This document shows, piece after piece, positions 2,268 to 23,926 of a stretch of DNA of 64,000 nucleotides. Each line of letters opens with the position of its first letter. Within the stretch, counting starts at the first letter, position 1. Origin of the DNA: Paramagnetospirillum marisnigri (GTDB taxonomy: Bacteria > Pseudomonadota > Alphaproteobacteria > Rhodospirillales > Magnetospirillaceae); assembly GCF_001650715.1 (NCBI RefSeq), contig NZ_LWQT01000120.1, positions 62,001-126,000 of the forward strand, given 5' to 3'. Under the pieces are notes generated by a model, which had not been told where the DNA came from, did no database searches, and worked only from the letters and a program-made list of their open reading frames with translations. Made by a program: the position numbers and the translations under genes.

Positions 2268-3601
2268 ATGATGTCCAGCCAGCCGGGAAGCGCCTCACGC
2301 GCCCGTTCGGCATAGAGCTTCTTGCGGTCGCGGCCCTTGATGCGGCGGCCCTTGTCGTCACGCTCGGGCGGCGGCGGGAACAGGCCGAAATTGATGTTCA
2401 TGGGCTGGTAGGTCTCGGCCTCGGCGCCGCCGGTGACATGGGCGAGCAGGGCACCCAGCGCCGTGGTCTGGGGCGGTGGCGGCAGGGGCTGGCCCAGGGT
2501 CTCGGCGGCGGCGAACAGTCCCGCCAGCAGGCCGATGGCGGCGCTTTCCACATAGCCCTCGCAGCCGGTGATCTGCCCGGCCAGGCGTAACCGGGGCTGG
2601 GCCTTCAGACGAAGAAATCCATCCAACACTCTGGGACCATTGACGAAAGTGTTGCGATGCAAACCGCCGAGACGGGCGAATTCCGCCGATTCCAGCCCCG
2701 GGATGGCGCGGAAGATACGGGCCTGTTCACCATGGCGCAGCTTGGTCTGGAACCCCACCAGATTGTAAAGCGTGCCCAGCGCGTTGTCCTGGCGCAACTG
2801 CACCACGGCGAAGGGCTTGGGGCCGTTGGGATTGGTCAGGCCCACCGGCTTCATGGGGCCAAAAGCCAAGGTGTCGCGACCGCGCGAGGCCATGACCTCG
2901 ATGGGCAGGCAGCCCTCGAAATAGGGTGTGTCCTTCTCCCAGTCGTGGAATTCCACCTTGTCGCCTTCGATCAGGGCGTCGATGAAGGCGTAATACTGGT
3001 CCTTGGACAGCGGGCAGTTGATGTAGTCCGAGCCGGTGCCCTTGTCGTAGCGCGACTGGAACCAGGCCTGGGAGAAATCGATGCTGTCCTTGGTGACGAT
3101 GGGGGCGATGGCATCGAAAAAGGCCAGCGACTCCTCGCCGGTCAGCCCCCCCAGCCCTTCGGCCATGGCAGCGGAGGTCAAGGGACCGGTGGCGATGATG
3201 GTCTGCCCCCAATCCTCGGGCGGCACCCCCGTCACTTCCTCGCGCACCAGGGAAACCAGGGGATGAGCGGCCAGGGCGGCCTCGACCCCGGCCGAGAACC
3301 CCTCGCGGTCCACCGCCAGGGCGCCGCCCGCCGGAACCTTATGGGTATCCGCCTGGGACAGGATCAGCGATCCGGCGCGGCGCATCTCCTCGTGCAGCAG
3401 GCCGACGGCGTTATAGTCGGCGTCGTCCGAGCGCAGGGAGTTGGAACAGACCAGTTCGGAGAGACCGTCGGTCTGGTGGGCGGGGCTGCGGCGATGGGGC
3501 CGCATCTCGTGCAGCACCACCGGGATATCGGCCTGGGCGAGCTGCCAGGCGGCTTCGCACCCGGCCAATCCGCCGCCGATCACATGGATAGGCTTAGTCA
3601 T
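2258..3601 (-). CDS. trmFO: TrmFO, folate/FAD-dependent tRNA m5U54 methyltransferase
   Basis: TrmFO methylates U54 in the tRNA T-loop using methylenetetrahydrofolate and FAD. The N-terminal dinucleotide-binding motif [14 protein letters not shown] is at residues 9-22. Cys52 in [10 protein letters not shown] matches the catalytic cysteine of characterised TrmFO proteins, and a second cysteine is present in the [14 protein letters not shown] block. At 447 residues it is full length. It is transcribed alone and converges with gloA. Confidence 0.96.
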
Positions 3602-3645
3602 GCCCCGTCACATAGACGCTCGGACGGCGTCTGTCCAGGGGATGG

Positions 3646-3915
3646 CTATTTGATGTTCTGCGAAACCGCCAACTGGGTCAGCCAGCCAACGGAGCCGCCG
3701 GTGGCCGCCGCCACCGATTTGTTGCCCTGGGCCGAATTCTTGCGGGCGCCCTCCACGTCGGTGCCTTTGTTCTTGTCCGGCAGATCCATGGGGCCGAAGG
3801 CATAGGTGGCGAAGGCCGAGGATGGGCCGGACGCGGCCTTGCGGGTGGAATGGCTGGCCGGGTTGTCCTTGCGGTTCAGAAGGATGTGGGACGAGGCCCC
3901 GGAAAGAGCTTGCAT
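3646..3915 (-). CDS. Small hypothetical protein
   Basis: An 89-residue protein I do not recognise. The ATG at 3915 is chosen because a GGAGA ribosome-binding site precedes it. The upstream in-frame extension to 4089 has a cysteine/arginine-rich composition unlike a real N-terminus. The protein is polar and rich in Ser, Ala and Asn, with no signal peptide or membrane span, and the middle block AFGPMDLPDKNKGTDVEGARKN looks disordered. It lies downstream of the divergent DUF4170 gene and upstream of trmFO. Confidence 0.55.
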   Translation of the reverse strand: MQALSGASSHILLNRKDNPASHSTRKAASGPSSAFATYAFGPMDLPDKNKGTDVEGARKNSAQGNKSVAAATGGSVGWLTQLAVSQNIK

Positions 3916-4118
3916 GGTCGGTCTCCGACGCGAAAAAGGAACTGCCCTCCACACTGCATTCGCCGTGCCAGCACGAAAAGCCAGCGTTTCCGCCGATCTG
4001 CCTCGGCATGCCCGGCAAATGCTGCCGGGTACGGGTGCAAGGAAGGAGATTTCTTCCCGGCGCGGATTAGGGTATAAGCACGCCGCCACCCCCTTTCGGA
4101 TGGGAAAGAGACTACCCC

Positions 4119-4520
4119 ATGGCCAAGACCTACTATGTCGTCGGCGGCGAATACGCCGATACTTCCTTTACCGTCATCGCCCCCGGCCATGTCGAGGAGC
4201 ATTTCGGCCCGTTCGACGAGCACGAGGCCCATATCTGCTGGCGGGCACTGACCGGCAAGTCCGTGGACAACGCCATGATCCGCTACTTCATCCGCGCGAC
4301 CGAGCAGGAGACGGTGGAGGAAGGCTGGTACGTGGTCGGCGGCGAATATGCCGACAACTCCTTCCAGGCCATCGCGGGCGGGCGCAAGCCCGACGTGTTC
4401 GGCCCGTTCAGCCGCAAGGAAGCCTTGGACAAGTGGCGCGAGCTTACCGGACGCACCGTCGATAGCGCGCTGACCCGCTATGACCTGTGCACCGCCGAGG
4501 AATTGAAGCGGGGCGATTAG
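4119..4520 (+). CDS. DUF4170-type protein with two tandem repeats
   Basis: This 133-residue protein consists of two head-to-tail copies of one roughly 65-residue unit. The first begins YYVVGGEYADTSFTVIA and the second WYVVGGEYADNSFQAIA, and both continue with a FGPF block and an LTGK/LTGR-TVD segment. The unit resembles DUF4170, small alphaproteobacterial proteins of unknown function that normally have a single copy. There is no signal peptide or membrane segment. It is probably a monocistronic cytoplasmic protein. Confidence 0.75.
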   Translation: MAKTYYVVGGEYADTSFTVIAPGHVEEHFGPFDEHEAHICWRALTGKSVDNAMIRYFIRATEQETVEEGWYVVGGEYADNSFQAIAGGRKPDVFGPFSRKEALDKWRELTGRTVDSALTRYDLCTAEELKRGD

Positions 4521-4594
4521 CCATTGATTGGCTGGTCAAACCGCGCTCATCGCGGTATCTCCTGAAGGGTTGAATCAAGCACCGGAGGCTTGTC

Positions 4595-4927
4595 GTGTCG
4601 CATTACCCCAACAAGTATCATGCCTTCATCTGCACCCAGCGTCGGCCCGAGGGCCATCCGCGCGGCTGCTGCACCACCAAGGGCGGCGGGATGCCCATGT
4701 TCGAACGCCTGGTCGGCCAGATCAGCGCCAAGAATTTGTGGGAAGCGGGTGTCAGCGTCGCCTCCAGCAGCTGCCTAGGCTTTTGCAAGGCGGGGCCGCT
4801 GATGGTGGTCTATCCCGAAGGCACCTGGTACAAGGTTGAAAAGCTGGAAGATATCGACGAGATCGTCGAGTCTCACTTCACCAAGCATACCCCGGTGGAA
4901 CGACTGATCGTTACTCCCAGCAAGTGA
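4595..4927 (+). CDS. Thioredoxin-like [2Fe-2S] ferredoxin
   Basis: A 110-residue protein of the thioredoxin-like 2Fe-2S ferredoxin family, presumably an electron carrier. Cysteines at the start (FICTQ), after a 12-residue loop (GCCTTKGG), and in SSCLGFCKAGP give the C-x(12)-C...C-x(3)-C arrangement of this family. Translation starts at GTG 4595, supported by a GGAGG box just upstream. It converges with the CULT-domain gene, whose stop follows immediately. The physiological partner cannot be told from the context. Confidence 0.85.
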   Translation: MSHYPNKYHAFICTQRRPEGHPRGCCTTKGGGMPMFERLVGQISAKNLWEAGVSVASSSCLGFCKAGPLMVVYPEGTWYKVEKLEDIDEIVESHFTKHTPVERLIVTPSK

Positions 4928-5296
4928 TCAGGTCCGGGCCGTGGTCAGGGCATCCTTGATCAGGCCGAAGAATATCCTGGGCTCGGCGCTGCCTTCATAG
5001 CGCCAGCCCAGGTGGGCTTCGCAGCCCCGGCAGGCGCACAGCCGCCACAGATATCCCCGAAACCAGGTAAATACCCCCGAGGCCGCGCCCACCGCCGTCG
5101 CGCCCGGTGCGTCGCGGAAGCACAACACCCTGAACACCAGTCCCGCCGGGTTGAAGAAGACGTGTTCATGGCCGCCATTCAGGCTCATTTCCCAGCGGCC
5201 CCGGGTGACCAGGGCGCCGCAGCGGGCGCAATAATACTCGATGTCTTGCGTCCAGGGCGCCAGGACCGCGTCGTGCGAGGGAGCATCGCGGGGCAT
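4928..5296 (-). CDS. CULT-domain protein (bacterial cereblon-like)
   Basis: This 122-residue stand-alone protein looks like the thalidomide-binding (CULT) domain of eukaryotic cereblon. Two CxxC pairs (Cys23/26 and Cys89/92) would bind structural zinc. Trp78, Trp84 and Trp98 form the expected tri-tryptophan cage, followed by Tyr100. The blocks GGHEHVFFNPAG (residues 41-52), FTWFRGYLW and HLGWRYEG match my recollection of the Magnetospirillum gryphiswaldense protein used as a structural model for cereblon ligands. Its natural ligand and cellular role in bacteria are unknown. It converges with the ferredoxin gene. Confidence 0.88.
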   Translation of the reverse strand: MPRDAPSHDAVLAPWTQDIEYYCARCGALVTRGRWEMSLNGGHEHVFFNPAGLVFRVLCFRDAPGATAVGAASGVFTWFRGYLWRLCACRGCEAHLGWRYEGSAEPRIFFGLIKDALTTART

Positions 5297-5342
5297 TCGG
5301 CCTCCAAATCTGCTGCCGCCACCGAATGTTGGAAGCGATCAT

Positions 5343-5648
5343 ATGACCATTCCAAGGTATGAGGCGCTAATGCCTTTCCCCATTATGCAGATCGGCAGTG
5401 CTGAAATACCTTGGCACAAGAAACCTAGGGGTATTCGCGACGTGCAATTGGGGCATCACGATAGCGGCAGTGCCATCGACCGTCTCGCCAGCTTGCTGGA
5501 CGAGGAAGCGGTGGGCCGCCCCATTGATCCGGACGAGGTGATCCGCCTTGCCCAGGAGGTTTCGCGGATCGTCCCGGAAATCACACCCTTCATGCATCGG
5601 GTGATCCATCGCATGAAGGCGAAGCAATCCCGTATCCGGGCGGCCTGA
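5343..5648 (+). CDS. Small hypothetical protein
   Basis: A 101-residue soluble protein without a recognised family. The ATG at 5343 is preferred because GGAAG lies 8 bp upstream. The C-terminal two-thirds are predicted helical (AIDRLASLLDEEAVGRPIDP, then a basic HRVIHRMKAKQSRIR tail). The basic tail could contact nucleic acid or a partner, but nothing proves it. It is divergent from the CULT gene and converges with the parvulin gene. Confidence 0.6.
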   Translation: MTIPRYEALMPFPIMQIGSAEIPWHKKPRGIRDVQLGHHDSGSAIDRLASLLDEEAVGRPIDPDEVIRLAQEVSRIVPEITPFMHRVIHRMKAKQSRIRAA

Positions 5649-5654
5649 AGCCCG

Positions 5655-5975
5655 TCAGTCGGTCCGTTGGATCAGGTGGAAACCGAATGGGGTTTCCACC
5701 ACGCCGCTGACCTCGCCCGAGGCCAAGCTAAAAGCGGCCACTTCGAATTCCGGCACCATGGCGCCCTTGGGGAAGACACCGAGATCGCCGCCATCTTCCG
5801 ACGACGGACAATCGGAATACTGCCGGGCCATGGCCTCGAAATCCGCGCCCTCCTTGATCTCTTCCAGAATCTCGGTGATGGCGGTCAGCGCCTCGTCCTT
5901 GCTGCGGCTGGCTTGCGAGCGCATGGAGCCCTTGTACATCAGCAGGATATGGGCGGCGCGGATCTGGTCGGGCAT
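5655..5975 (-). CDS. Parvulin-type peptidyl-prolyl isomerase
   Basis: A 106-residue single-domain parvulin that catalyses prolyl cis-trans isomerisation. The domain starts directly with AAHILLMYKGS, and contains the conserved DFEAMARQYSDCPSSEDGGDLGVFPKGAM block and the C-terminal TPFGFHLIQ motif. There is no signal peptide, so it is probably cytoplasmic, like PpiC (Par10) or a rotamase of that class. It is followed by a convergent small gene and lies downstream of the RNA methyltransferase on the same strand. Confidence 0.92.
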   Translation of the reverse strand: MPDQIRAAHILLMYKGSMRSQASRSKDEALTAITEILEEIKEGADFEAMARQYSDCPSSEDGGDLGVFPKGAMVPEFEVAAFSLASGEVSGVVETPFGFHLIQRTD

Positions 5976-6011
5976 GGTGTCGGCTCCACAGGAGGGGGGA
6001 AGGAGGCGAGT

Positions 6012-6806
6012 TTAGGCGGTTCGGCCCGACTGCGCCAGTTGATGAATCACGATGGCGGCGGTGGCGGCGACGTTCAGGGACTGGATGCGCCCCGAGCCCT
6101 CGATGGTGGCGATCTCGTCGCAGGCGGCCAGGGTGGCGGGGGACAGGCCGTTTTCCTCATTGCCCAGGATCAGGGCCACCGGCTTGGAGGTGGGGGCCAG
6201 GCACTGGGCCAGCGGCCGCCCGGCACCCAGGGCGGTGCCGATGATTCTGTGGGAGTCCCTCAGCCGTTTCAGGGCCGGAATGAACTTCTGGGTGCGATAA
6301 ATATCGATCCATTCCAGTCCGCCCTCGGCGACTCGCTGGGCGGCTTCCGATGGCAGCGCCTGGGCGGGATGGTCCGAGACCAGAAGACGTTCCAGGCCGA
6401 AAAAGGCCATGGTCCGGGCGATGGCTCCCAGGTTATGGGGATTGGAAATGCCATCCAGCACCAGCAAGGGTCGGCCGGACTTGGCCCAAAGCTGGGCCTC
6501 GGCCGGATCGAACACCGCGATGGGGCGCGGCTTGGCCACCACCACGATGCCGCCGTGAAGCTGGGTTCCGGCGATGCGGCTCAACTCCTCGGTGGGGACC
6601 ATGCGGTAGGGCTTGTGCTGGCGCGCCATCACCGCGCAGAAATCGCCCGCCAACACCTTCATGCGATCATCATAGAACAGGCGCTCGGCCCGGCGGGGAT
6701 CACGGGCGAACAGGGCGGCAACGGCGGGCAGTCCCGCCACCCGTTCCAAATCCTCGGCGGGACGCTTCGGGGCGGGCTTCTTGTGCGGGAGCGGGGCTCG
6801 TGCCAT
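6012..6806 (-). CDS. SpoU/TrmH-family rRNA 2'-O-methyltransferase (RlmB-like)
   Basis: An AdoMet-dependent SPOUT methyltransferase that methylates a ribose 2'-OH in rRNA or tRNA. An N-terminal substrate-binding domain (residues 20-105) precedes the SPOUT domain. That domain shows motif 1 LVLDGISNPHNLGAIARTM, motif 2 ALILGNEENGLS and motif 3 IEGSGRIQSLNVAATAAI, including the catalytic Asn and Arg. The N-terminus is Lys/Pro-rich (LPHKKPAPKRP). I start at the ATG at 6806; an alternative ATG six codons upstream (6824) has no better ribosome-binding site. Exact target unknown. Confidence 0.9.
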   Translation of the reverse strand: MARAPLPHKKPAPKRPAEDLERVAGLPAVAALFARDPRRAERLFYDDRMKVLAGDFCAVMARQHKPYRMVPTEELSRIAGTQLHGGIVVVAKPRPIAVFDPAEAQLWAKSGRPLLVLDGISNPHNLGAIARTMAFFGLERLLVSDHPAQALPSEAAQRVAEGGLEWIDIYRTQKFIPALKRLRDSHRIIGTALGAGRPLAQCLAPTSKPVALILGNEENGLSPATLAACDEIATIEGSGRIQSLNVAATAAIVIHQLAQSGRTA

Positions 6807-6832
6807 GACTGAGGGGCCTTGCATTGGTGGGG

Positions 6833-7441
6833 ATGTGTGTTTTGCCTCGGCTGATCCTGTTCAACAAGCCCTATGACGTGCTGACCCAGTTCACCGACCG
6901 CGACGGCGGCCGCGCCACCTTGAAGGATTACGTCGTCATTCCCGGTGTCTATGCCGCCGGGCGGCTAGACCGGGATTCCGAAGGTCTGCTGGTGCTGACC
7001 GATTCCGGGCCGCTGATCAAGCGCATCAGCGATCCCCGCCACAAGCTGCGCAAGGTCTATTGGGCCCAGGTGGAAGGTCAGCCCACCGAGGCGGCGCTGG
7101 AGGCGCTGCGGCGGGGCGTGACGCTCAATGACGGCCCCACCCGTCCGGCAGGGGCGAGACTGATGGAGGAGCCGCCCGGCCTGTGGCCGCGCGACCCGCC
7201 CATCCGCTTCCGCGCCGCCATTCCCACCGCCTGGATCGAATTGACCCTGTCCGAGGGCCGCAATCGCCAGGTCCGGCGTATGACCGCCGCCGTGGGTTTT
7301 CCCACCCTGCGCCTGATCCGCTGGGCGGTGGGCGACTGGACCCTGGACGGACTGGCGCCGGGGCAGTGGCGTGAGATCATGCCACCTCGGACAGAACCCG
7401 GCGCAAGGCCGCGACCGCCTCGTCCAGCAATTCGGGGGTAA
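6833..7441 (+). CDS. RluE/RsuA-type 23S rRNA pseudouridine synthase
   Basis: This enzyme of about 202 residues isomerises a uridine in 23S rRNA. The sequence lacks an S4 domain and begins directly with [19 protein letters not shown], as in RluE. The catalytic motif is [17 protein letters not shown], and [16 protein letters not shown] is the conserved C-terminal RNA-contact block. The ATG at 6833 follows a GGTGGGG box. Its last 65 bp overlap the convergent ornithine aminotransferase gene, an unusually long overlap. It is divergent from the SpoU methyltransferase gene. Confidence 0.88.
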
Positions 7442-8576
7442 TCACCAGCGGCGGCGCGAAGCGAATGGAATTGCGGTGGGTGTCCTTGGTCAGCACCCCC
7501 TTGGCCGCCAGCCGGTCGCAGACCTCGTGGGCGGTGACGCGGGCGGCATCGAACTGGATGCCGACGAACAGGCCCTTGCCCCGGATCTGGGTGATCAGTG
7601 GCGAGCCCAGGCCGCGCAGACTGGACAACAGCCGCTCGCCCAACTCGGCGGACCGTTCGATCAGGCCTTCCTCCACCAGCACCGACAGGGCTTCATGCCC
7701 CACCGCCGCCGCCAGGGGATTGCCGCCGAAAGTGCTGCCGTGGTCGCCGGGCCGGAAGACGTCGATCACCTCGCGCCGCGCCAGGAAGAGCGAGACCGGC
7801 AGCACGCCGCCGCCCAGGGCCTTGCCCAGGGTGACGGCATCCGGGGTGATGCCGTCGTGCTCGCAGGCCAGCAGTCGGCCGGTGCGCCCCAGGCCGGTCT
7901 GGACCTCGTCGGCAATCAGCAGCACCCGGTGGTCATCGCAGATGCGGCGGCAGGCGGCGAGATAGCCCGGCGGCGGCACCACGATTCCGGCCTCGCCCTG
8001 GATGGGTTCCACCAGGAAGGCGGCGGTATCGGGCGTGATGGCCCGCTCCAGCGCCTCGGCGTCGCCGAAAGGAACCTGATCGAAGCCGGCCGGGTAGGGG
8101 CCGAAGCCGTCGCGATACTGCGCCACCGAGGACATGCCGATGATGGCGATGGTGCGGCCATGGAAGTTATCGGCGCAGGAAATGATCCGCGCCTGGCCCG
8201 GTGGCACGCCCTTGACGGTATAGGCCCATTTGCGGGCCGCCTTCAGCGCGGTTTCCACCGCCTCGGCGCCGGTGTTCATGGGCAGGCCGCCATCCATGCC
8301 AGTCAGGCGGCAGGCCAGTTCCAGGAACGGCCCCAGCCGGGTGGTGTGATAGGCCCGTGATACCACCGCCAGCCGGGAGGCCTGCTCGGTCAGCGCCTTG
8401 AGAATGCGGGGATGGCCGTGGCCCAGGCTGACGGCGGAATAGCAGCCCATCATGTCGATGAAACGACGGCCGCCTTCGTCCCACAACAAGGCGCCCTGTC
8501 CGCGCGCCAGGACCACCGGCAGCGGCTGATAGTTATGGGCGCACCAGCGCGCCTCGCGTTCGATAGTGGTGGTCAT
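7377..8576 (-). CDS. rocD: Ornithine aminotransferase
   Basis: A PLP-dependent class III aminotransferase that moves the delta-amino group of ornithine to 2-oxoglutarate, giving glutamate semialdehyde. The 399 residues include the fold-I hallmarks [17 protein letters not shown], the [11 protein letters not shown] block with the PLP-contacting Asp, and the Schiff-base lysine in TLGKALGGG. Thr/Phe-rich [12 protein letters not shown] follows, as in RocD. Its start overlaps the arginase stop by 4 bp, so arginine would go to ornithine and on to glutamate within one operon. Confidence 0.92.
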
Positions 8577-9433
8577 GGAGGGTCTCCCGACGACCGTATC
8601 GCCGCTTCGACGATGGTCTCGACCAGGGCGGCGGTGCGTTGGTCGATGTCGTGGTGGGGATTGTACTCGGCGATTTCCAAGCCGATACAGCGCGGCGAGG
8701 CCAGCAGCGGCGCCAGGGCATCCAGCAATTCATCGGCCCGAATGCCGCCAGGGGCGGGGGTACCCACCCCGGGGGCGTCGGCGGGATCAATGGCGTCTAG
8801 GTCGAGGCTGATGCCGAAGTCGCCCGGCCCGGTGGCCTCGGCCAGGGCGGCGGCAAGGCCGAGCCGCTTCAGTTCGGCCATGCCCATGACCCGGATGCCG
8901 TGGCGGGACGTCCTTGCTTCCTCCTCGGGCTCCCAACTGCGCACGCCCATCAAGGTGACTTCAGTCCCCGTCAACACGGGGGGATGGCGTGCCAATCCCG
9001 GCGGCCCCAATCCCAGCAGGCAGGCCAGTGGCATGCCGTGCAGCGCGCCGGACGGGCTGGTATCGGGCGTATGGAGGTCCATATGGGCATCGATCCAGAT
9101 CAGGCGGAAGGCCGCCCCATGGGCCTGGCGCAAGCCCGCCCAGGTGCCCATGGCGCAGGAATGGTCACCGCCGATGACGATGGGAAAGCGACCGCGGCCG
9201 CATTCCTTGGCCACCAGTGTGGCGAGATGATCGGCGAGACGGGGAATCACCGTTTGGGCGTCACCAAGCGGCGCCTGGAGTTCCAGGCAATGGAGGTCCT
9301 CGGTCAGGCCTCGCAGCCTCTCGCCCATGCCGCCCCGGCGCAAGGCCCGGGGGCCATCGGCGCAACCGCCGTCACGGGCGCCCAAACCACAGCCCACGCC
9401 AAGGATGGTCATGGCTCGACCCGATCCGGTCAT
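8573..9433 (-). CDS. rocF: Arginase
   Basis: A ureohydrolase that splits arginine into ornithine and urea with a binuclear Mn centre. Metal-binding blocks are all present: GGDHSCAMGT, DAHMDLHT and the SLDLDAIDPADAPG block. The ATG at 9433 is selected because GGAGG stands 6 bp upstream; the longer frame to 9535 has no such support. It is coupled to ornithine aminotransferase by a 4-bp overlap, which favours arginase over agmatinase. Length (286 residues) is slightly shorter than the usual 300. Confidence 0.92.
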   Translation of the reverse strand: MTGSGRAMTILGVGCGLGARDGGCADGPRALRRGGMGERLRGLTEDLHCLELQAPLGDAQTVIPRLADHLATLVAKECGRGRFPIVIGGDHSCAMGTWAGLRQAHGAAFRLIWIDAHMDLHTPDTSPSGALHGMPLACLLGLGPPGLARHPPVLTGTEVTLMGVRSWEPEEEARTSRHGIRVMGMAELKRLGLAAALAEATGPGDFGISLDLDAIDPADAPGVGTPAPGGIRADELLDALAPLLASPRCIGLEIAEYNPHHDIDQRTAALVETIVEAAIRSSGDPP

Positions 9434-9653
9434 GTCGGCCTCCATCCGACCACAGGCCCTTATTCCCAATGAGTCATTTAACCATTGTCGGGACTGATTT
9501 GCAGGGGAGCCAAGGGGGACACGGTGAAAAATCACGGTTTCGCCACAATGGCGCCCCGCATGTCGCCGTAATCTCCGGCCATCTTGGCGTTCGGAAGCGG
9601 GAGGGGCGCCCGGCCCGGCTTCCAGACCTCACGCGGCGCCGGAAACAGTGATC

Positions 9654-9779
9654 ATGTCGAGCAAGAGCGAAGCCAGCATCTCCCAGGCCTCTGAAGCTTC
9701 CAAGTCGGCCCAGGAGGCAGCCAAGGCGGCGGCCGAGGCATTGCGGCAGCGCCGGGCCCAGATCGCGGCCTATATCTGA
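9654..9779 (+). CDS. Possible 41-residue Ser/Ala-rich protein
   Basis: A short open frame in the gap between arginase and the OmpA lipoprotein gene. It starts with ATG after a GGAAA box and ends at TGA 9777. The first half is Ser/Ala-rich (MSSKSEASISQASEASKSAQ) and the second half an Ala-rich amphipathic helix ending LRQRRAQIAAYI. No homologue recognised. It could be a real small protein or chance, and the rest of the 350-bp gap shows nothing else. Confidence 0.35.
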   Translation: MSSKSEASISQASEASKSAQEAAKAAAEALRQRRAQIAAYI

Positions 9780-9786
9780 GGATTGA

Positions 9787-10548
9787 TCAGGTGAGGGGGT
9801 GGAGCGGCGGTCCGCGAACCGGCGGAAGGTCGGCCACCCGCTCGCCCATGGGCGCGATGGCGGCGATCCAGGCCGAAGCGGCGCTCGCGGCATCCGTCAC
9901 GGCAGGCAATGTCGCCTCCGGGCCGGAGCCGGCCAGGACACCGGTGACGGGGTCGGAAGCGGCCGTGAGGGTGGCGCCGTCGCTGGCGGGAGACTCGGCG
10001 CTGGTCTGGGGAATATCCACGGCGGCCGACTTGGCCTGGGGCTCCCAGGTGATCTCGACGCGACGGTCGCGGGCTTCCTTGTGCTTGCCTTTACGGGCGG
10101 TGGTGGATTTGTCCGAGCCGAAGCCCACGACTTCCACCTTGGCGGCGACAATGCCCAGCTTGCGGAGCTGGTCAGCCACGGCCTGAGCCCGCTTTTCCGA
10201 CAGCATCCGGTTATAGGACGACTTGCCCGCAGAATCGGTAAAGCCGTGAATGCGGATCACCGAGGGCTGCGCCGCCTTCAGCGCCGGGGCCGCTCCGTGC
10301 AGGACCTGCATGGTCGAAGCCGAGATGTCCGACTTGTTGAGGCCGAAATACACCACCAGCGGCTGAGCTTCCATTTCCACCGGCGCGGCCACGACGGGCG
10401 GCGGGGGCGGGGGGGCGGCACTGGTCACGGGGGCGACGGCACTCTGGGTCGAAACGACGGGAGCCGAGGACTCCATGGAGGGGGACGCCGCGCAGGCGGA
10501 TAAGGCGGTCAGGGCCGCCAGGGTGGTGAATACGCGGACGATCTTCAT
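9787..10548 (-). CDS. OmpA-family peptidoglycan-associated lipoprotein
   Basis: A 253-residue outer-membrane lipoprotein. A signal peptide ends at lipobox LSAC with Cys19, followed by a Pro-rich linker (APPPPPPVVAAP). The OmpA C-terminal domain (about residues 60-170) carries IRIHGFTDSAGKSSYN and LSEKRAQAVADQLRKLGI, which bind diaminopimelate in peptidoglycan, then RRVEI. An unusual 80-residue Ala/Ser/Thr-rich tail follows the domain. The ATG at 10548 is chosen for its ribosome-binding site. The 200-bp AT-richer gap upstream (10549-10758) should hold its promoter. Confidence 0.88.
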   Translation of the reverse strand: MKIVRVFTTLAALTALSACAASPSMESSAPVVSTQSAVAPVTSAAPPPPPPVVAAPVEMEAQPLVVYFGLNKSDISASTMQVLHGAAPALKAAQPSVIRIHGFTDSAGKSSYNRMLSEKRAQAVADQLRKLGIVAAKVEVVGFGSDKSTTARKGKHKEARDRRVEITWEPQAKSAAVDIPQTSAESPASDGATLTAASDPVTGVLAGSGPEATLPAVTDAASAASAWIAAIAPMGERVADLPPVRGPPLHPLT

Positions 10549-10758
10549 GGTCGGTCTCGTCAAGCAATGGCCACGACCGCCCCAGACAGGGACAGGCGCA
10601 ACCTCAATCTTGCAAGACGAGACTCAATTGTCCAGCAAAATACTGGCATGAACGATGTCGAACTAAAGTAAGCGCCATGACAAGGCGCCAATATAGCTAA
10701 AAAGTCACTTTAAAGGCGTTGGATTCACGATCGCAAAAAATAATTGCTAATCAATGCG

Positions 10759-13602
<2,844 letters not shown>

Positions 13603-13889: not shown

Positions 13890-14462
13890 ATGGAAGCCGT
13901 TCTTCTGTCCCTGACCGTGGTCGCCGCCGCCGAGATCGGCGACAAGACCCAGTTGCTGGCCCTGCTGCTGGCCGCCAAATACCGCAAGCCCGTGCCGGTG
14001 GTGGCGGGCATCTTCGTCGCCACCATCCTCAATCACGGCATCGCCGCCGGAATCGGCGTGGCGGTGGCGCAATGGCTGGGGCCTGACTGGCTGCGCTGGA
14101 TCATCGGCCTGTCCTTCATCGCCATGGCGGCCTGGACCCTGGTTCCCGACAAGATGGACGAGGAGCCGAAGATGTGGGAGCGGGCAGGGGCCTTCGTCGC
14201 CACCACCGTCTCGTTCTTCCTGGTGGAGATCGGCGACAAGACCCAGGTGGCCACCGTCGCCCTGGGCGCCCGCTATGGCGATTTGCTGGCCGTGACCACC
14301 GGCACCACGCTGGGCATGCTGATCGCCGACATTCCCGCCGTCTTCGTCGGCAATGCCCTGGCAGAGAAGATCCCCCTGGGGCTGGTGCGGGTCATCGCCG
14401 CTGCCATCTTCGCCATCCTCGGCGTGCTGGCCCTGATGGGATACGGCAACGAACTTCTGTAA
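13890..14462 (+). CDS. UPF0016/GDT1 family manganese exporter
   Basis: A 190-residue inner-membrane protein with six predicted helices in two inverted halves. Each half carries the family motif E-x-G-D-K-T: AAAEIGDKTQLLALLLAAKY at the N-terminus and EIGDKTQVATVALGARYG in the second half. Characterised bacterial members (MneA/Mnx type) export Mn2+, and the preceding manganese riboswitch supports that here. The ATG at 13890 is selected because the frame extension upstream to 13755 runs through the riboswitch. Confidence 0.9.
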   Translation: MEAVLLSLTVVAAAEIGDKTQLLALLLAAKYRKPVPVVAGIFVATILNHGIAAGIGVAVAQWLGPDWLRWIIGLSFIAMAAWTLVPDKMDEEPKMWERAGAFVATTVSFFLVEIGDKTQVATVALGARYGDLLAVTTGTTLGMLIADIPAVFVGNALAEKIPLGLVRVIAAAIFAILGVLALMGYGNELL

Positions 14463-14467
14463 AGAAA

Positions 14468-14499
14468 AAGCCGCGCAATCAGATGGTTGCGCGGCTTTC
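14468..14499. terminator. Bidirectional intrinsic terminator
   Basis: A 12-bp perfect stem (AAAGCCGCGCAA / TTGCGCGGCTTT) around an 8-base loop sits between the convergent manganese exporter and ssb genes. A/T runs flank both sides, so it can end transcription from either direction. Confidence 0.85.
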
Positions 14500-14516
14500 C
14501 TCTCACCTGTTCCCGA

Positions 14517-15017
14517 TCAGAACGGAATTTCATCGTCCATGTCGGCCGGGGGTTCCCAGCTCTGGCCGCCGCCCTGGCGAGCACCGCCGCCACCGCCGCC
14601 GCCGCCCTGCTGACGCGGGCTGTCGTCGTAGCCACCGCCGCCATAACCGCCACCGCCGCCGCCGTCACGGCCGCCCAGCAGGGTGAGTTCGCCCTTGAAA
14701 CGGCCGATCACCACTTCGGTGGAGTACTTCTCGACGCCCTGCTGGTCGGTCCATTTGCGGGTCTGGAGCGCGCCTTCCACATAGACGCTGCTGCCCTTCT
14801 TCAGATAGCGCTCGGCGATGTCGGCCAGGTTTGGATTGAAGATCACCACCCGGTGCCACTCGGTCTTTTCCTTGCGCTCGCCGGTGGCGCGATCCTTCCA
14901 GGATTCTGAGGTGGCGATATTGAGATTGACGATCTTGGACCCGTCCTGCGAGGTGCGGACCTCGGGATCACGGCCGAGATTTCCAAGCAATATCACCTTG
15001 TTGACGCTACCGGCCAT
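14517..15017 (-). CDS. ssb: Single-stranded DNA-binding protein
   Basis: A 166-residue SSB. The OB fold starts [20 protein letters not shown] and includes the [19 protein letters not shown] and [20 protein letters not shown] blocks. A Gly-rich disordered linker follows, and the tip DDEIPF is the partner-interaction tail, with Glu replacing the more usual Asp. The ATG at 15017 matches the family start; the frame extends upstream to 15206 but without family features. It is likely expressed from its own promoter in the gap to the next gene. Confidence 0.96.
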
Positions 15018-15084
15018 GTCGCACGGGCTCCCCGCTTGAGATTGAAAGCGGGATCGTACTGCATGGCCGAAGGCGGTGAAAGCC

Positions 15085-15483
15085 CTAATGCTTCGCCTTG
15101 GATGGGGGGGCGGGCAGCAGGCGCCCCAGCAGCGAGCCCAGCGCCTTGACATAGGCGGCCGCACCGGAGCGATGCATGCGCAGATTGATCTCGCCCCCCC
15201 GGGCAAGGCGGAAGCCCAGGGTCAGATATTCCTCGTCCGCCTCGGGACGGATGGTCCATTTTTCCACGGCGATGGCCGGGGCGGGGGCGGCGGGGTTGCT
15301 CTGTTCGGTATCGGCCAGGCGTTCGGCATGCTGCAGCCAGGACGACAGGATGGACAACTGGTCCAGCGGCAGGGTGACCACCGCCTCCTCGCCGGATTCG
15401 TCAAGCAGCACCAGCCGCACACCGTCGCCGGTATCCGAGGTTCTGGCCGACAGGACCTGCTGCGCCGATATCACCCGTTTCAT
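15085..15483 (-). CDS. Hypothetical protein
   Basis: A 132-residue soluble protein I do not recognise. It is made of alternating beta-like stretches ([38 protein letters not shown]) and a helix with [12 protein letters not shown], and ends in a Pro/Lys-rich tail. It is divergent from gyrA with about 160 bp between the starts, and upstream of ssb on the same strand, so the two may share a transcript. Confidence 0.6.
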
Positions 15484-18851: not shown

Positions 18852-19331
18852 GTGGACGCCGAAAACACCCTTTATCTCGACCTCAAGGACGGCCGCGTGG
18901 TGATCCAGCTGCGCCCCGATCTCGCCCCCAATCACGTGGCCCGCATCAAGGAACTGGTGCGCGAGGGCTTCTATGACGGCCTGAAGTTCCATCGGGTCAT
19001 CGACGGCTTCATGGCCCAGACCGGGTGTCCCAAGGGCACCGGCACCGGCGGCTCCGACAAGGGCCACCTGAAGGCCGAATTCTCGGGCGAGAAGCATGTG
19101 CGCGGCACCTGCTCCATGGCTCGTGCCGCCAGTCCCGACAGTGCCAGTTCGCAGTTCTTCATCTGCTTCGGCGCCCATTCCCATCTCGACCGCCAGTATA
19201 CCATCTGGGGACAGGTCTCCGAGGGCATGGACTTCGTGGATGCCATCAAGAAGGGCGCGGCGCGCAGCGGCAGCGTCGATTCTCCTGATTCCATCATCCG
19301 CCTGCGGGTCGCGGCGGATTGCGAGGACTGA
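18852..19331 (+). CDS. Cytoplasmic cyclophilin peptidyl-prolyl isomerase
   Basis: A 159-residue cyclophilin. It has the catalytic FHRVIDGFMAQTGCP block (the Arg is active) and SSQFFICFG, both family hallmarks. It begins with GTG 18852 behind GGAGG, and has no signal peptide. It is followed 8 bp later by a second cyclophilin gene with a signal peptide, so the pair serves cytoplasm and periplasm. It forms a run with gyrA and coaD. Confidence 0.93.
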   Translation: MDAENTLYLDLKDGRVVIQLRPDLAPNHVARIKELVREGFYDGLKFHRVIDGFMAQTGCPKGTGTGGSDKGHLKAEFSGEKHVRGTCSMARAASPDSASSQFFICFGAHSHLDRQYTIWGQVSEGMDFVDAIKKGAARSGSVDSPDSIIRLRVAADCED

Positions 19332-19338
19332 TCAGATC

Positions 19339-19893
19339 ATGACTTCCGTTTTCAAGCGCTTCGCCCTGGCCCTGGCGGCCCTGGCGCTGTCCGCCCTGCA
19401 TCCCGCCCTGGCCGCCGGCCCCGACGACACCTGGGTGTTGGAATTGTCCTCGGGCAAGGTGGTGATCGAATTCCGCAACGATCTGGCGCCCCATCACGTG
19501 GCCCGGATCAAGGAACTGACCCGCAAGGGCTTCTATGACGGCACCCCGTTCCACCGCGTCATCGCGGGCTTCATGGCCCAGGGCGGCGATCCCACCGGCA
19601 CCGGCTCCGGTGGTTCGGGCACCAGGATCAGGGCCGAATTCACAGGCGAGCCCTTCGTGCGCGGCGTGGTCGGCATGGCCCGTTCCGGCAGCCCCGATTC
19701 CGCCGATTCCCAGTTCTTCATCATGCTGGGCTCCGCTCCCAGCCTGGACGGCAAGTACACCGCCTTTGGCCGGGTACTCGAAGGCATGGAATTCGTCGAT
19801 CGCATCAAGAAGGGCGACGCGGGCGACAATGGCATTGTTTCCAATCCTGACAAGCTGCTCCGGGCCCAGATCCTGGCCGACGTCAAGAAATAA
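19339..19893 (+). CDS. Periplasmic cyclophilin peptidyl-prolyl isomerase
   Basis: A 184-residue paralogue of the preceding protein. Residues 1-24 form a signal peptide ending in HPALAAG. The mature domain keeps FHRVIAGFMAQGGDP and SQFFIMLGSAPSLDG. The ATG at 19339 was taken because it starts the signal sequence; the longer frame overlaps the previous gene. It probably folds exported proteins. A duplication followed by acquisition of a signal peptide is the simplest history for the pair. Confidence 0.92.
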   Translation: MTSVFKRFALALAALALSALHPALAAGPDDTWVLELSSGKVVIEFRNDLAPHHVARIKELTRKGFYDGTPFHRVIAGFMAQGGDPTGTGSGGSGTRIRAEFTGEPFVRGVVGMARSGSPDSADSQFFIMLGSAPSLDGKYTAFGRVLEGMEFVDRIKKGDAGDNGIVSNPDKLLRAQILADVKK

Positions 19894-22410: not shown

Positions 22411-23136
22411 ATGATTGAGACGTTTGAGGGATCATCCGGCGACGGCGATGCCGTCTGGCGGAACAGCCTGCATGACCAAGCCGGGCGAACTTCCGATCTT
22501 TACGCCAATTGCGTGGGAGCCTACCACGCATTCGACAGCCTGCCGCGTCTGGTGGAAGGACTGCGTTTGCTGTCCATCAATGCCGGGCTGGTATCCGCCA
22601 GGGCAGGGGATTACGGCCGTTCCGTGCGGGTACTAACTCATTTCGCTACCGAATCGGTGGTTCGGCTGCACGAGGCCGTGCCCAAGATGCTGGCTCTGAA
22701 GCGCGACACTTATGAAACCGCGGCCGGGGTCATGCGGGCCATCAACGACATTGGCAAGCTGGAAGCGGCCGGGACCCTGATCCTGCGCAACTCGGGGCCG
22801 GAGGCTGCCGCGCTGATCCGGATGGGGGCGGCCTGGCGGTCGCGGGTACAGCATTTGGGGCGCGCGGCCGGGCATCTGGCTGCCACCAACGACCAGTTGG
22901 TGGCCATGGTCAAGGTGGCGCGGGAAGTCATGCTGCAAACCGAGCTGATCGCCGCCAATATCGCCATCGAGGCCACCTCGGCCGGCCCTTGGGAAGCGGA
23001 ATTGACGGCCATCGCCGACACCATCCGGGAAAAAGTCGACGAGTTGCGGACCATGGTGGACGAGGCGGGACGACGGCTGCGCAACGCCACCGAGACCATC
23101 GTCGGATTGGTGGCCTTCGGTCACAGGACACAATAA
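22411..23136 (+). CDS. Soluble chemoreceptor-like helical protein
   Basis: A 241-residue, almost wholly helical protein without a membrane span or PAS domain. Two internal segments resemble the hairpin tip of methyl-accepting chemotaxis proteins: LSINAGLVSARAGDYGRSVR (residues 54-73) and ELIAANIAIEATSAGPWEAE (178-197). The first retains the ARAGDYGR turn; the second keeps AIEA. It lacks the canonical GRGFAVVA string, so coupling to CheA/CheW is not assured. The next gene, 16 bp on, encodes a di-iron ODP-like protein, suggesting a joint signalling role. The ATG at 22411 is preferred over the longer frame. Confidence 0.65.
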   Translation: MIETFEGSSGDGDAVWRNSLHDQAGRTSDLYANCVGAYHAFDSLPRLVEGLRLLSINAGLVSARAGDYGRSVRVLTHFATESVVRLHEAVPKMLALKRDTYETAAGVMRAINDIGKLEAAGTLILRNSGPEAAALIRMGAAWRSRVQHLGRAAGHLAATNDQLVAMVKVAREVMLQTELIAANIAIEATSAGPWEAELTAIADTIREKVDELRTMVDEAGRRLRNATETIVGLVAFGHRTQ

Positions 23137-23152
23137 TGAAGGAACGGATGGG

Positions 23153-23926
23153 ATGAAGTGCACCGAGCTGTGGGCCGAGGGCGAGTACCGCTGGCTGGCT
23201 TTTGCCGATGACCCGGCCAAGCCGGAGAACGTCATCGACACCAACCAGTTGGTGGTGGTCGGCTCCCAAGGCTGCATGCTGATCGACCCGGGCGGAGTCG
23301 AGGTGTTTCCCGCCATGGTCGCCGCCGTCACCCAGGAAGTGCCGGTGGATACCATCCGCCATCTGTTTCTCAGCCACCAGGACCCCGACGTGTCGTCGGC
23401 GCTGCCGCTGTGGCGTCAGGTTTGCCGCGAAGACCTGACCACCCATGTATCGTGGATGTGGACCGGCTTTGTCAGCCATTTCGACCGTGAGGCCCGCTTT
23501 CACGCCATTCCCGATGAGGGGTGCGATATCCAGGTGTCGCCGGAAGTCTGGCTGAAGGTTCTGCCCGCTCATTACCTGCATTCACCGGGAAATTTCTCCA
23601 TCTACGACCCCAAGGCCAAGGTGCTGTTCTCCGGCGATATCGGGGCCGCTCTGGTGCCGCGCGAGCGCCGCTCGGGGATTTACGTCGAGGATTTCGCCAG
23701 CCATATTCAGTACATGGAAGCGTTTCATCGGCGCTGGATGGGATCGGCAGCGGCCCGCGACAAGTGGATTGCCATGGTCCGCCGTCTCGACGTGGATATC
23801 CTGGCCCCCCAGCATGGGCTGCTGTTCCGGGGTGCCGATGTGGGCCGTTTCCTCGATTGGCTCGGCGAGTTGCCTCTGGCGGGCGGACTGGACTCCTTCG
23901 ATCAGGCAACGGCCCGACTGGGTTGA
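23153..23926 (+). CDS. ODP-like di-iron metallo-beta-lactamase-fold protein
   Basis: A 257-residue protein of the metallo-beta-lactamase fold related to flavodiiron proteins, but lacking the flavodoxin domain. Candidate metal ligands are His75, Asp77 and Asp79 in the SHQDPDVSS motif, His143 in AHYLHSPGNF, Asp162 in FSGDIG and His221 in APQHG. This resembles oxygen-binding di-iron proteins (ODP) that serve as oxygen/iron sensors feeding chemotaxis in Treponema. The adjacent chemoreceptor-like gene supports that reading. Alternative: an oxidoreductase of unknown electron partner. Confidence 0.8.
   Translation: MKCTELWAEGEYRWLAFADDPAKPENVIDTNQLVVVGSQGCMLIDPGGVEVFPAMVAAVTQEVPVDTIRHLFLSHQDPDVSSALPLWRQVCREDLTTHVSWMWTGFVSHFDREARFHAIPDEGCDIQVSPEVWLKVLPAHYLHSPGNFSIYDPKAKVLFSGDIGAALVPRERRSGIYVEDFASHIQYMEAFHRRWMGSAAARDKWIAMVRRLDVDILAPQHGLLFRGADVGRFLDWLGELPLAGGLDSFDQATARLG

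Follow-up and report, generated by a model that had tools for sequence, protein, structure and literature searches.

A soluble receptor-like protein with two chemoreceptor-tip-like ends, paired with a predicted oxygen-binding di-iron protein in Paramagnetospirillum marisnigri and its relatives

In Treponema denticola, an oxygen-binding di-iron protein (ODP) is genetically coupled to a receptor homolog that has neither membrane nor sensing modules (TDE2498/TDE2496; available portions of PMC7666581 and PMC6978683). The Treponema ODP is described as an oxygen sensor, and the receptor homolog as able to modulate CheA (available portion of PMC7666581). ODP-MCP operons in two gene orders, as well as fusions of ODPs to signaling domains, have already been described (available portion of PMC7319448). 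As far as these portions go, it is known that the ODP senses oxygen, that it is coupled to a truncated receptor, and that ODPs occur in operons with MCPs and in fusions. For magnetotactic bacteria, the available text of PMC12442639 states that oxygen receptors had not been experimentally identified before 2025, and the 11 receptors deleted in that study of Magnetospirillum gryphiswaldense are of the PAS, globin, hemerythrin, and Cache types.

The stretch of DNA analyzed here (64,000 nucleotides of the Paramagnetospirillum marisnigri genome, referred to as the window) contains a gene pair that resembles these systems, in which a short receptor-like protein (MCPL) is followed by an ODP. Genes were called by codon-position score; longest-frame calling produced antisense clusters. 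The features of the pair are as follows.

22411 to 23136, + strand: open reading frame of MCPL, a 241-residue receptor-like protein predicted to fold as a soluble bundle of four helices, with two ends that resemble chemoreceptor tips
22567 to 22620, + strand: MCPL tip-like segment 1 (residues 53 to 70), aligned to host receptors
22600 to 22602, + strand: R64 of MCPL in segment 1, at the place of Tsr R388; the E385 place of this segment is without Glu
22945 to 22998, + strand: MCPL tip-like segment 2 (residues 179 to 196), aligned to host receptors
22969 to 22971, + strand: E187 of MCPL in segment 2, at the place of Tsr E385; the R388 place of this segment is without Arg
23137 to 23152, + strand: gap of 16 bp between the MCPL and ODP genes, with a purine-rich stretch ahead of the ODP start
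23153 to 23926, + strand: ODP, metallo-beta-lactamase-fold protein of 257 residues, predicted di-iron (PF19583; 6qrq, 6qnm)
23375 to 23389, + strand: HQDPD motif, ODP residues 75 to 79, present in 44 of 44 aligned ODPs
23570 to 23572, + strand: H140 of ODP, predicted iron ligand, kept in 44 of 44
23636 to 23638, + strand: D162 of ODP, predicted iron ligand, kept in 42 of 44
23810 to 23815, + strand: Q220-H221 of ODP, motif 5 (Q in 43 of 44, H in 42 of 44)

An initial annotation, made from the sequence letters, had described two open reading frames 16 bp apart, the first for a soluble protein with two tip-like segments; both frames and the gap are as claimed, the segment positions are right, and MCPL is without a membrane span by the Kyte-Doolittle scale (largest 19-residue mean, 1.17). 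Judged by sequence, the two genes of the window are probably cotranscribed, and relatives keep the gene order and the close spacing. The window pair is under purifying selection (dN/dS of 0.18 for MCPL and of 0.10 to 0.13 for ODP, at dS values near 1 or above). No che gene was found among its neighbors in the stretch examined. These neighbors are common to Paramagnetospirillum kuznetsovii (locus L058) and locus L059; the gene after the pair, which has a weak HTH match (23.4 bits versus a cutoff of 25), is kept in both. Two adjacent cyclophilin-like genes of the window (identified by eye; positions 18852 to 19893) fall in one gene cluster, which L058 and L059 share.

The second protein is clearly an ODP by sequence, and iron and oxygen binding are predicted for it. 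This is what the initial annotation had proposed from the HQDPD motif, and the assignment is borne out by a match to PF19583 over model positions 1 to 194 of 194 (238 bits; E = 8.5e-71; cutoff, 27.2) and by PDB matches to 6qrq (E = 2.4e-64) and 6qnm (E = 1.9e-53), both titled oxygen-binding di-iron protein. The PDB search also gave a weak hit, to 1e5d (E = 0.021), and Pfam revealed neither a flavodoxin nor a rubredoxin domain in the window protein. The metal motifs are H75-Q-D77-P-D79, H140, D162, and Q220-H221; from the flavodiiron/ODP fold, the His and Asp residues of these motifs are predicted iron ligands. Among 44 aligned ODPs (those of the window and the host paralog, 40 from public loci, and 2 of a variant type described below), HQDPD and H140 are invariant, and the whole motif set is kept by 42. 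Q220 agrees with the Gln reported at motif 5 of the Thermotoga ODP (available portion of PMC7785958). One ODP that adjoins MCPL (locus L105, positions 6654 to 7403) has lost ligands (D162T and H221G), carries no fused domain, and is perhaps a nonmetal descendant. The host genome also encodes a third PF19583 protein (L188; G000:C41:35086-35742; 196 bits), which falls in another subgroup (76 bits versus the ODP profile built here).

The likeness of MCPL to chemoreceptors emerges at the profile level. The Pfam MCPsignal model (PF00015) scores 24.5 bits on MCPL and 30.7 bits on a relative (locus L103), both under the cutoff of 34.6. A single-sequence PDB search with the window MCPL gave nothing convincing, the best match being a catalase-peroxidase (E = 0.044). 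When an alignment of 57 proteins (A3, comprising the window MCPL and MCPLs from 56 of 65 loci) was used as a profile, 13 of 13 PDB matches at E < 1e-3 were chemoreceptors, including 3g67/3g6b and the fragments 4jpb and 3ur1. A3 was split into two halves, each of which was compared by hhalign with 30 receptors taken from the 47 matches in the host. Half 1 scored 40.7 and half 2 scored 54.0 against the host receptor tips, both in register, while the maxima of 200 column shuffles each were 21.1 and 24.0 and the reversed profiles scored 14.9 and 19.8, respectively. As judged by these scores, the homology of both halves to the receptor tip is beyond chance. Compared directly, the two halves show no significant likeness (score, 19.5; probability, 0.2), and their tip segments are identical at 3 of 20 residues; because the halves are so unlike, we do not claim a direct demonstration of tandem duplication, and an internal duplication would instead be deduced through the receptor tip common to both. 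Thus, what the initial annotation had called an unusual internal duplication stands with respect to the two tips, but the duplication is not directly demonstrable, and the imitation of a receptor dimer by a single chain explains the arrangement best.

Structure prediction is consistent with such an imitation. The AlphaFold2 model of MCPL computed with A3 (pLDDT, 93.0; pTM, 0.85) contains helices at residues 21 to 39, 44 to 64, 66 to 126, 132 to 188, and 192 to 239, and its breaks at residue 65 and residues 189 to 191 fall at the two tips, with residues 127 to 131 as the opposite turn; at tip 1, residue 65 alone is nonhelical by DSSP. In VIA-align, the model covers 192 of 194 residues of 8d9o (2.3 Å; Z = 18.7), which we take to be a single-chain four-helix bundle. 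A model was also made for L087, a relative from Magnetospirillum sulfuroxidans without an ODP (pLDDT, 89.8); its helix is unbroken at tip 1, and it covers 194 of 194 residues of 8d9o (2.2 Å; Z = 19.7). The end-to-end alignment of both models to 8d9o speaks for a turn at tip 1, and the placement of both tips in MCPL would follow from these bundle alignments. The predicted helix count and order are those of a receptor dimer tip in one chain, and our reading of the models is that MCPL is a single-chain pseudo-dimer of the receptor tip. The model helices, of about 45 to 60 residues, leave little room for a methylation region. A Foldseek search with the MCPL model gave no match at E ≤ 0.001, and the best matches of the fold searches were single-chain helical bundles; the fold libraries consist of single chains, among which two-chain receptor dimers cannot turn up. 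Covariation (36 effective sequences) gave no signal at either tip turn (centers ranked 120th or lower of 363); its top center is residue 128, in the predicted far turn, with a signal too weak for use.

In Tsr, E385 and R388' form an interdimer ionic lock (available portion of PMC8144572), and both residues occur together in one tip in 30 of 30 host receptors compared. In the 57 rows of A3, the R388 place holds Arg in every half 1 and in no half 2, whereas the E385 place holds Glu in every half 2 and never in half 1 (Ala in 53 and Val in 4). The N381 place is nearly invariant (Asn in 57 of 57 for half 1 and 56 of 57 for half 2), and the tip-loop glycines are altered in half 2. The Glu/Arg split is likewise present in L103, which lies outside A3, and, judged by eye, in all seven distant-variant sequences that were aligned; these lack the second Asn. 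From this pattern, the halves of MCPL would appear to be specialized, and a trimer made of MCPL only could presumably not close every lock.

MCPL comes chiefly from Rhodospirillales. The window protein matches 51 of 99 related genomes at E ≤ 0.001, some of them via ordinary receptors, and 44 of the 99 were counted as carriers with a threshold of E ≤ 1e-9. In a class-wide search of 385 genomes, five match at E ≤ 1e-10, the clear members being the host (G000) and G072; the other three matches (43 to 46 bits) were taken for ordinary receptor coiled coils. A scan of a species-genome collection yielded 61 MCPL loci, most with record titles of Rhodospirillales and six titled otherwise or to class or phylum only (L067, L070, L076, L090, L100, and L105), and MCPL was found in four viral contigs. 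The window-type MCPL forms a clade of eight rows (support, 99/100). The host genome has a second, paralogous MCPL-ODP pair (C55:54035-55536), with 36% and 58% identity, respectively, to the window pair. A BPD_transp_1 permease gene (positions 9537 to 11192 of that locus, L050) takes the final base of the paralogous ODP gene as its first; judged by eye, the permease looks like an iron(III) ABC type, and a binding-protein-like gene lies at positions 14187 to 15206.

The pairing proposed by the initial annotation is real and conserved, with ODP directly after MCPL in 41 of the 61 public loci, but the remaining 20 loci have no ODP beside MCPL. Furthermore, PF19583 finds nothing at E ≤ 1e-5 in 9 of the 44 carriers. 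Because of these ODP-less loci and carriers, MCPL must have an ODP-independent role. Genome G041 has MCPL but no ODP, and genome G008 has an MCPL-ODP pair that belongs to the paralogous type. CheA is present in all 44 carriers and in 39 of the 55 other genomes (Fisher P = 2.6e-5, uncorrected for descent); it is common overall (83 of 99 genomes). In loci L036 and L091, MCPL contains an in-frame stop and ODP lies in two frames, probably because this copy of the pair is decaying, or else through assembly errors.

Fusions point to oxygen as the likely input. ODP is fused to Bac_globin in L097 and to Globin plus Bac_globin in L094, where two iron ligands are altered (D162E and H221R), while in L103, a locus without ODP, MCPL itself is fused to Globin plus Bac_globin. 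The three form one clade (support, 100/99), with L103 as the sister of L094 (100/97); all are metagenome assemblies, and the L103 fusion might be a misjoin. Read most simply, these sequences suggest that a heme oxygen sensor first joined the di-iron sensor and then took its place, with the transducer retained.

Chemotaxis, presumably through CheA, is the likely output. A diverged MCPL variant of about 203 amino acids is paired with ODP in eight genomes of two genera. It has no Pfam match but aligns with the A3 profile with both tips in register (probability, 94.8; P = 5e-8); because its direct alignment with host receptors is weak (probability, 6.3), the variant is tied to receptors through MCPL. 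The variant pair sits with che genes in six of the eight genomes, and in the other two the contig ends early. CheA was named by Pfam in L183, the other che genes of L183 were named by eye, and the names were transferred by tblastn. In G028, the gene order is cheA, cheW, cheR, cheB and, further on, cheD, the variant, ODP, a receiver-like gene, and a receptor-like frame. Likewise, an extra gene follows ODP in five loci of the main family, and the member tested (L114) matches MCPsignal with 54.5 bits and Cache below the threshold. In L183, positions 7286 to 9511 separate the variant pair from the che genes and encode a response regulator bearing a SpoIIE phosphatase domain together with an HATPase_c_2 protein on the opposite strand, an arrangement that resembles partner-switching systems. 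The oxygen or aerotaxis role suggested by the initial annotation is the best fit to the globin series, the che-linked variant, and the receptor-only PDB matches, although aerotaxis itself is something that we infer.

Taken as a whole, the most plausible role of the pair is oxygen-sensing chemotaxis, with two proteins forming the receptor and a pseudo-dimer serving as its transducer, a reading to which we assign a probability of roughly 60%. It draws on what was computed, namely, the pairing itself, the resemblance of each half to receptor tips, the separation of Glu from Arg, and a four-helix model of high confidence. ODP would be the sensor, binding iron and oxygen, and MCPL, as a minimal and soluble chemoreceptor made of one chain, would act as transducer, its four helices being equivalent to those of a normal receptor homodimer. 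MCPL would be reduced to the kinase-contacting tip, the membrane, sensing, and HAMP parts being absent and the methylation region scarcely fitting. Iron or oxygen on ODP would alter a putative physical contact between ODP and MCPL, and MCPL, docked inside the chemosensory array or on its margin, would in turn alter CheA activity. With the lock residues apportioned to different halves, MCPL would probably take part as a guest alongside ordinary receptors.

The altered lock residues and half 2 loop can also be read differently, since by sequence the contact with CheA/CheW may be changed or lost. MCPL could then be a receptor-derived adaptor that acts off CheA, with ODP and MCPL sensing oxygen and the output being transcription, cyclic di-GMP, or iron uptake. 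The weak-HTH gene kept after the window pair in L058 and L059 and the permease gene that begins at the last base of the host's second ODP gene would suit such outputs. However, the HTH-like gene occurs in three loci only, and the permease belongs to none of the recurring gene clusters. In six of eight genomes che genes accompany the distant variant, and the near invariance of the Asn, Glu, and Arg places is hard to reconcile with a lost contact, so that we consider an adaptor of this kind unlikely. It is very improbable that ODP is an oxygen- or peroxide-scavenging enzyme with MCPL as a nonsignaling chaperone or scaffold: the ODP fold is common to oxygen-reducing flavodiiron proteins, as the weak match to 1e5d reflects, but the window ODP has no flavodoxin or rubredoxin domain, MCPL conserves its receptor-tip residues, and globins join or replace ODP.

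The phage neighborhood of MCPL raises another alternative. On the strand opposite MCPL, a phage major capsid gene lies next to it at 30 of 61 public loci, at the host's second pair, and in all four viral contigs; of the 20 public loci that lack ODP, 15 have this capsid linkage. Phage gene identities were obtained by testing one representative per gene cluster; the proteins of the module are a connector (PF12236), a capsid assembly protein (PF05396), a capsid protein (PF19821), tail proteins (phrog_394 and phrog_376), and a tail collar protein, and from these matches the structural module looks T7-like. At the host's second pair (L050, G000:C55:46000-62000), the capsid gene of the T7-like module and the pair lie within positions 2576 to 9537, and a scaffold gene lies further on, at C55:61265-61942. 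Pairs of ODP-less phage-linked MCPLs have dN/dS ratios of 0.07 to 0.17, which indicate purifying selection. These observations would fit a phage-borne modifier of chemotaxis, in which a tip decoy joins or blocks the array, ODP is optional, and the window copy is a relative retained by the host. Nevertheless, neither the window clade (eight rows) nor the che-linked variant has phage genes in the stretches examined, MCPL has no PHROG family match, and, because a methylmalonyl-CoA-mutase-like gene (identified by eye) recurs near the pair or the phage module in several species, the phage-like module is suggested to be an old resident element. A phage-borne modifier is therefore, in our estimation, even less probable than the adaptor.

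A bolder form of the favored reading, oxygen-sensing chemotaxis through a pseudo-dimer transducer, is that MCPL represents a new chemoreceptor class: a pseudo-dimer with an Arg-only and a Glu-only half that enters mixed trimers as a guest, has an exchangeable sensor (di-iron ODP or heme globin), and provides phage-borne oxygen tuning in many lineages. We regard this as possible though doubtful. In the literature covered, which was partial and concerned ODPs and di-iron chemotaxis, Tsr tip residues, Tm14, pseudo-dimer receptors, and prophage-borne chemotaxis genes, we found no description of a chemoreceptor chain with two tips, of a split lock, of an ODP replaced by globins, or of such a gene residing in phages; such proteins may be listed as MCPs in the ODP family paper of Muok et al. 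2019 (PNAS). If the favored reading is true, a single-chain receptor dimer already exists in nature, and each tip half would be separately mutable, which could tell the trimer-facing half from the CheA/CheW-facing half. Likewise, the globin series would mean that the receptor output is retained while the oxygen sensor is exchanged, and phages would, through their linkage to MCPL, be connected with the way the host navigates. The MCPL family occurs in magnetotactic bacteria.

Among known systems, the A3 profile matches 3g67/3g6b (E = 7e-6), a receptor of 213 residues that we take to be Tm14 of Thermotoga maritima. Like MCPL, Tm14 is a small soluble receptor; it presumably has one hairpin per chain and forms a two-chain dimer, whereas MCPL has two tips in one chain. 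CetA/CetB, including CetBA2 of M. gryphiswaldense, is likewise a two-protein redox or oxygen receptor in a magnetotactic relative, but its sensor is FAD-PAS instead of ODP, and the available portion of PMC12442639 makes no mention of ODP. The T. denticola pair comes closest in kind, in that an ODP is coupled to a membrane-free receptor homolog. By the available descriptions, its partner is an MCP homolog, while MCPL is one short chain with two tips and a split lock and, unlike the T. denticola pair as described there, occurs mostly in Rhodospirillales, frequently lies next to phage genes, and can be ODP-less or globin fused. MCPL looks like a new receptor architecture within a known kind of ODP-receptor pair.
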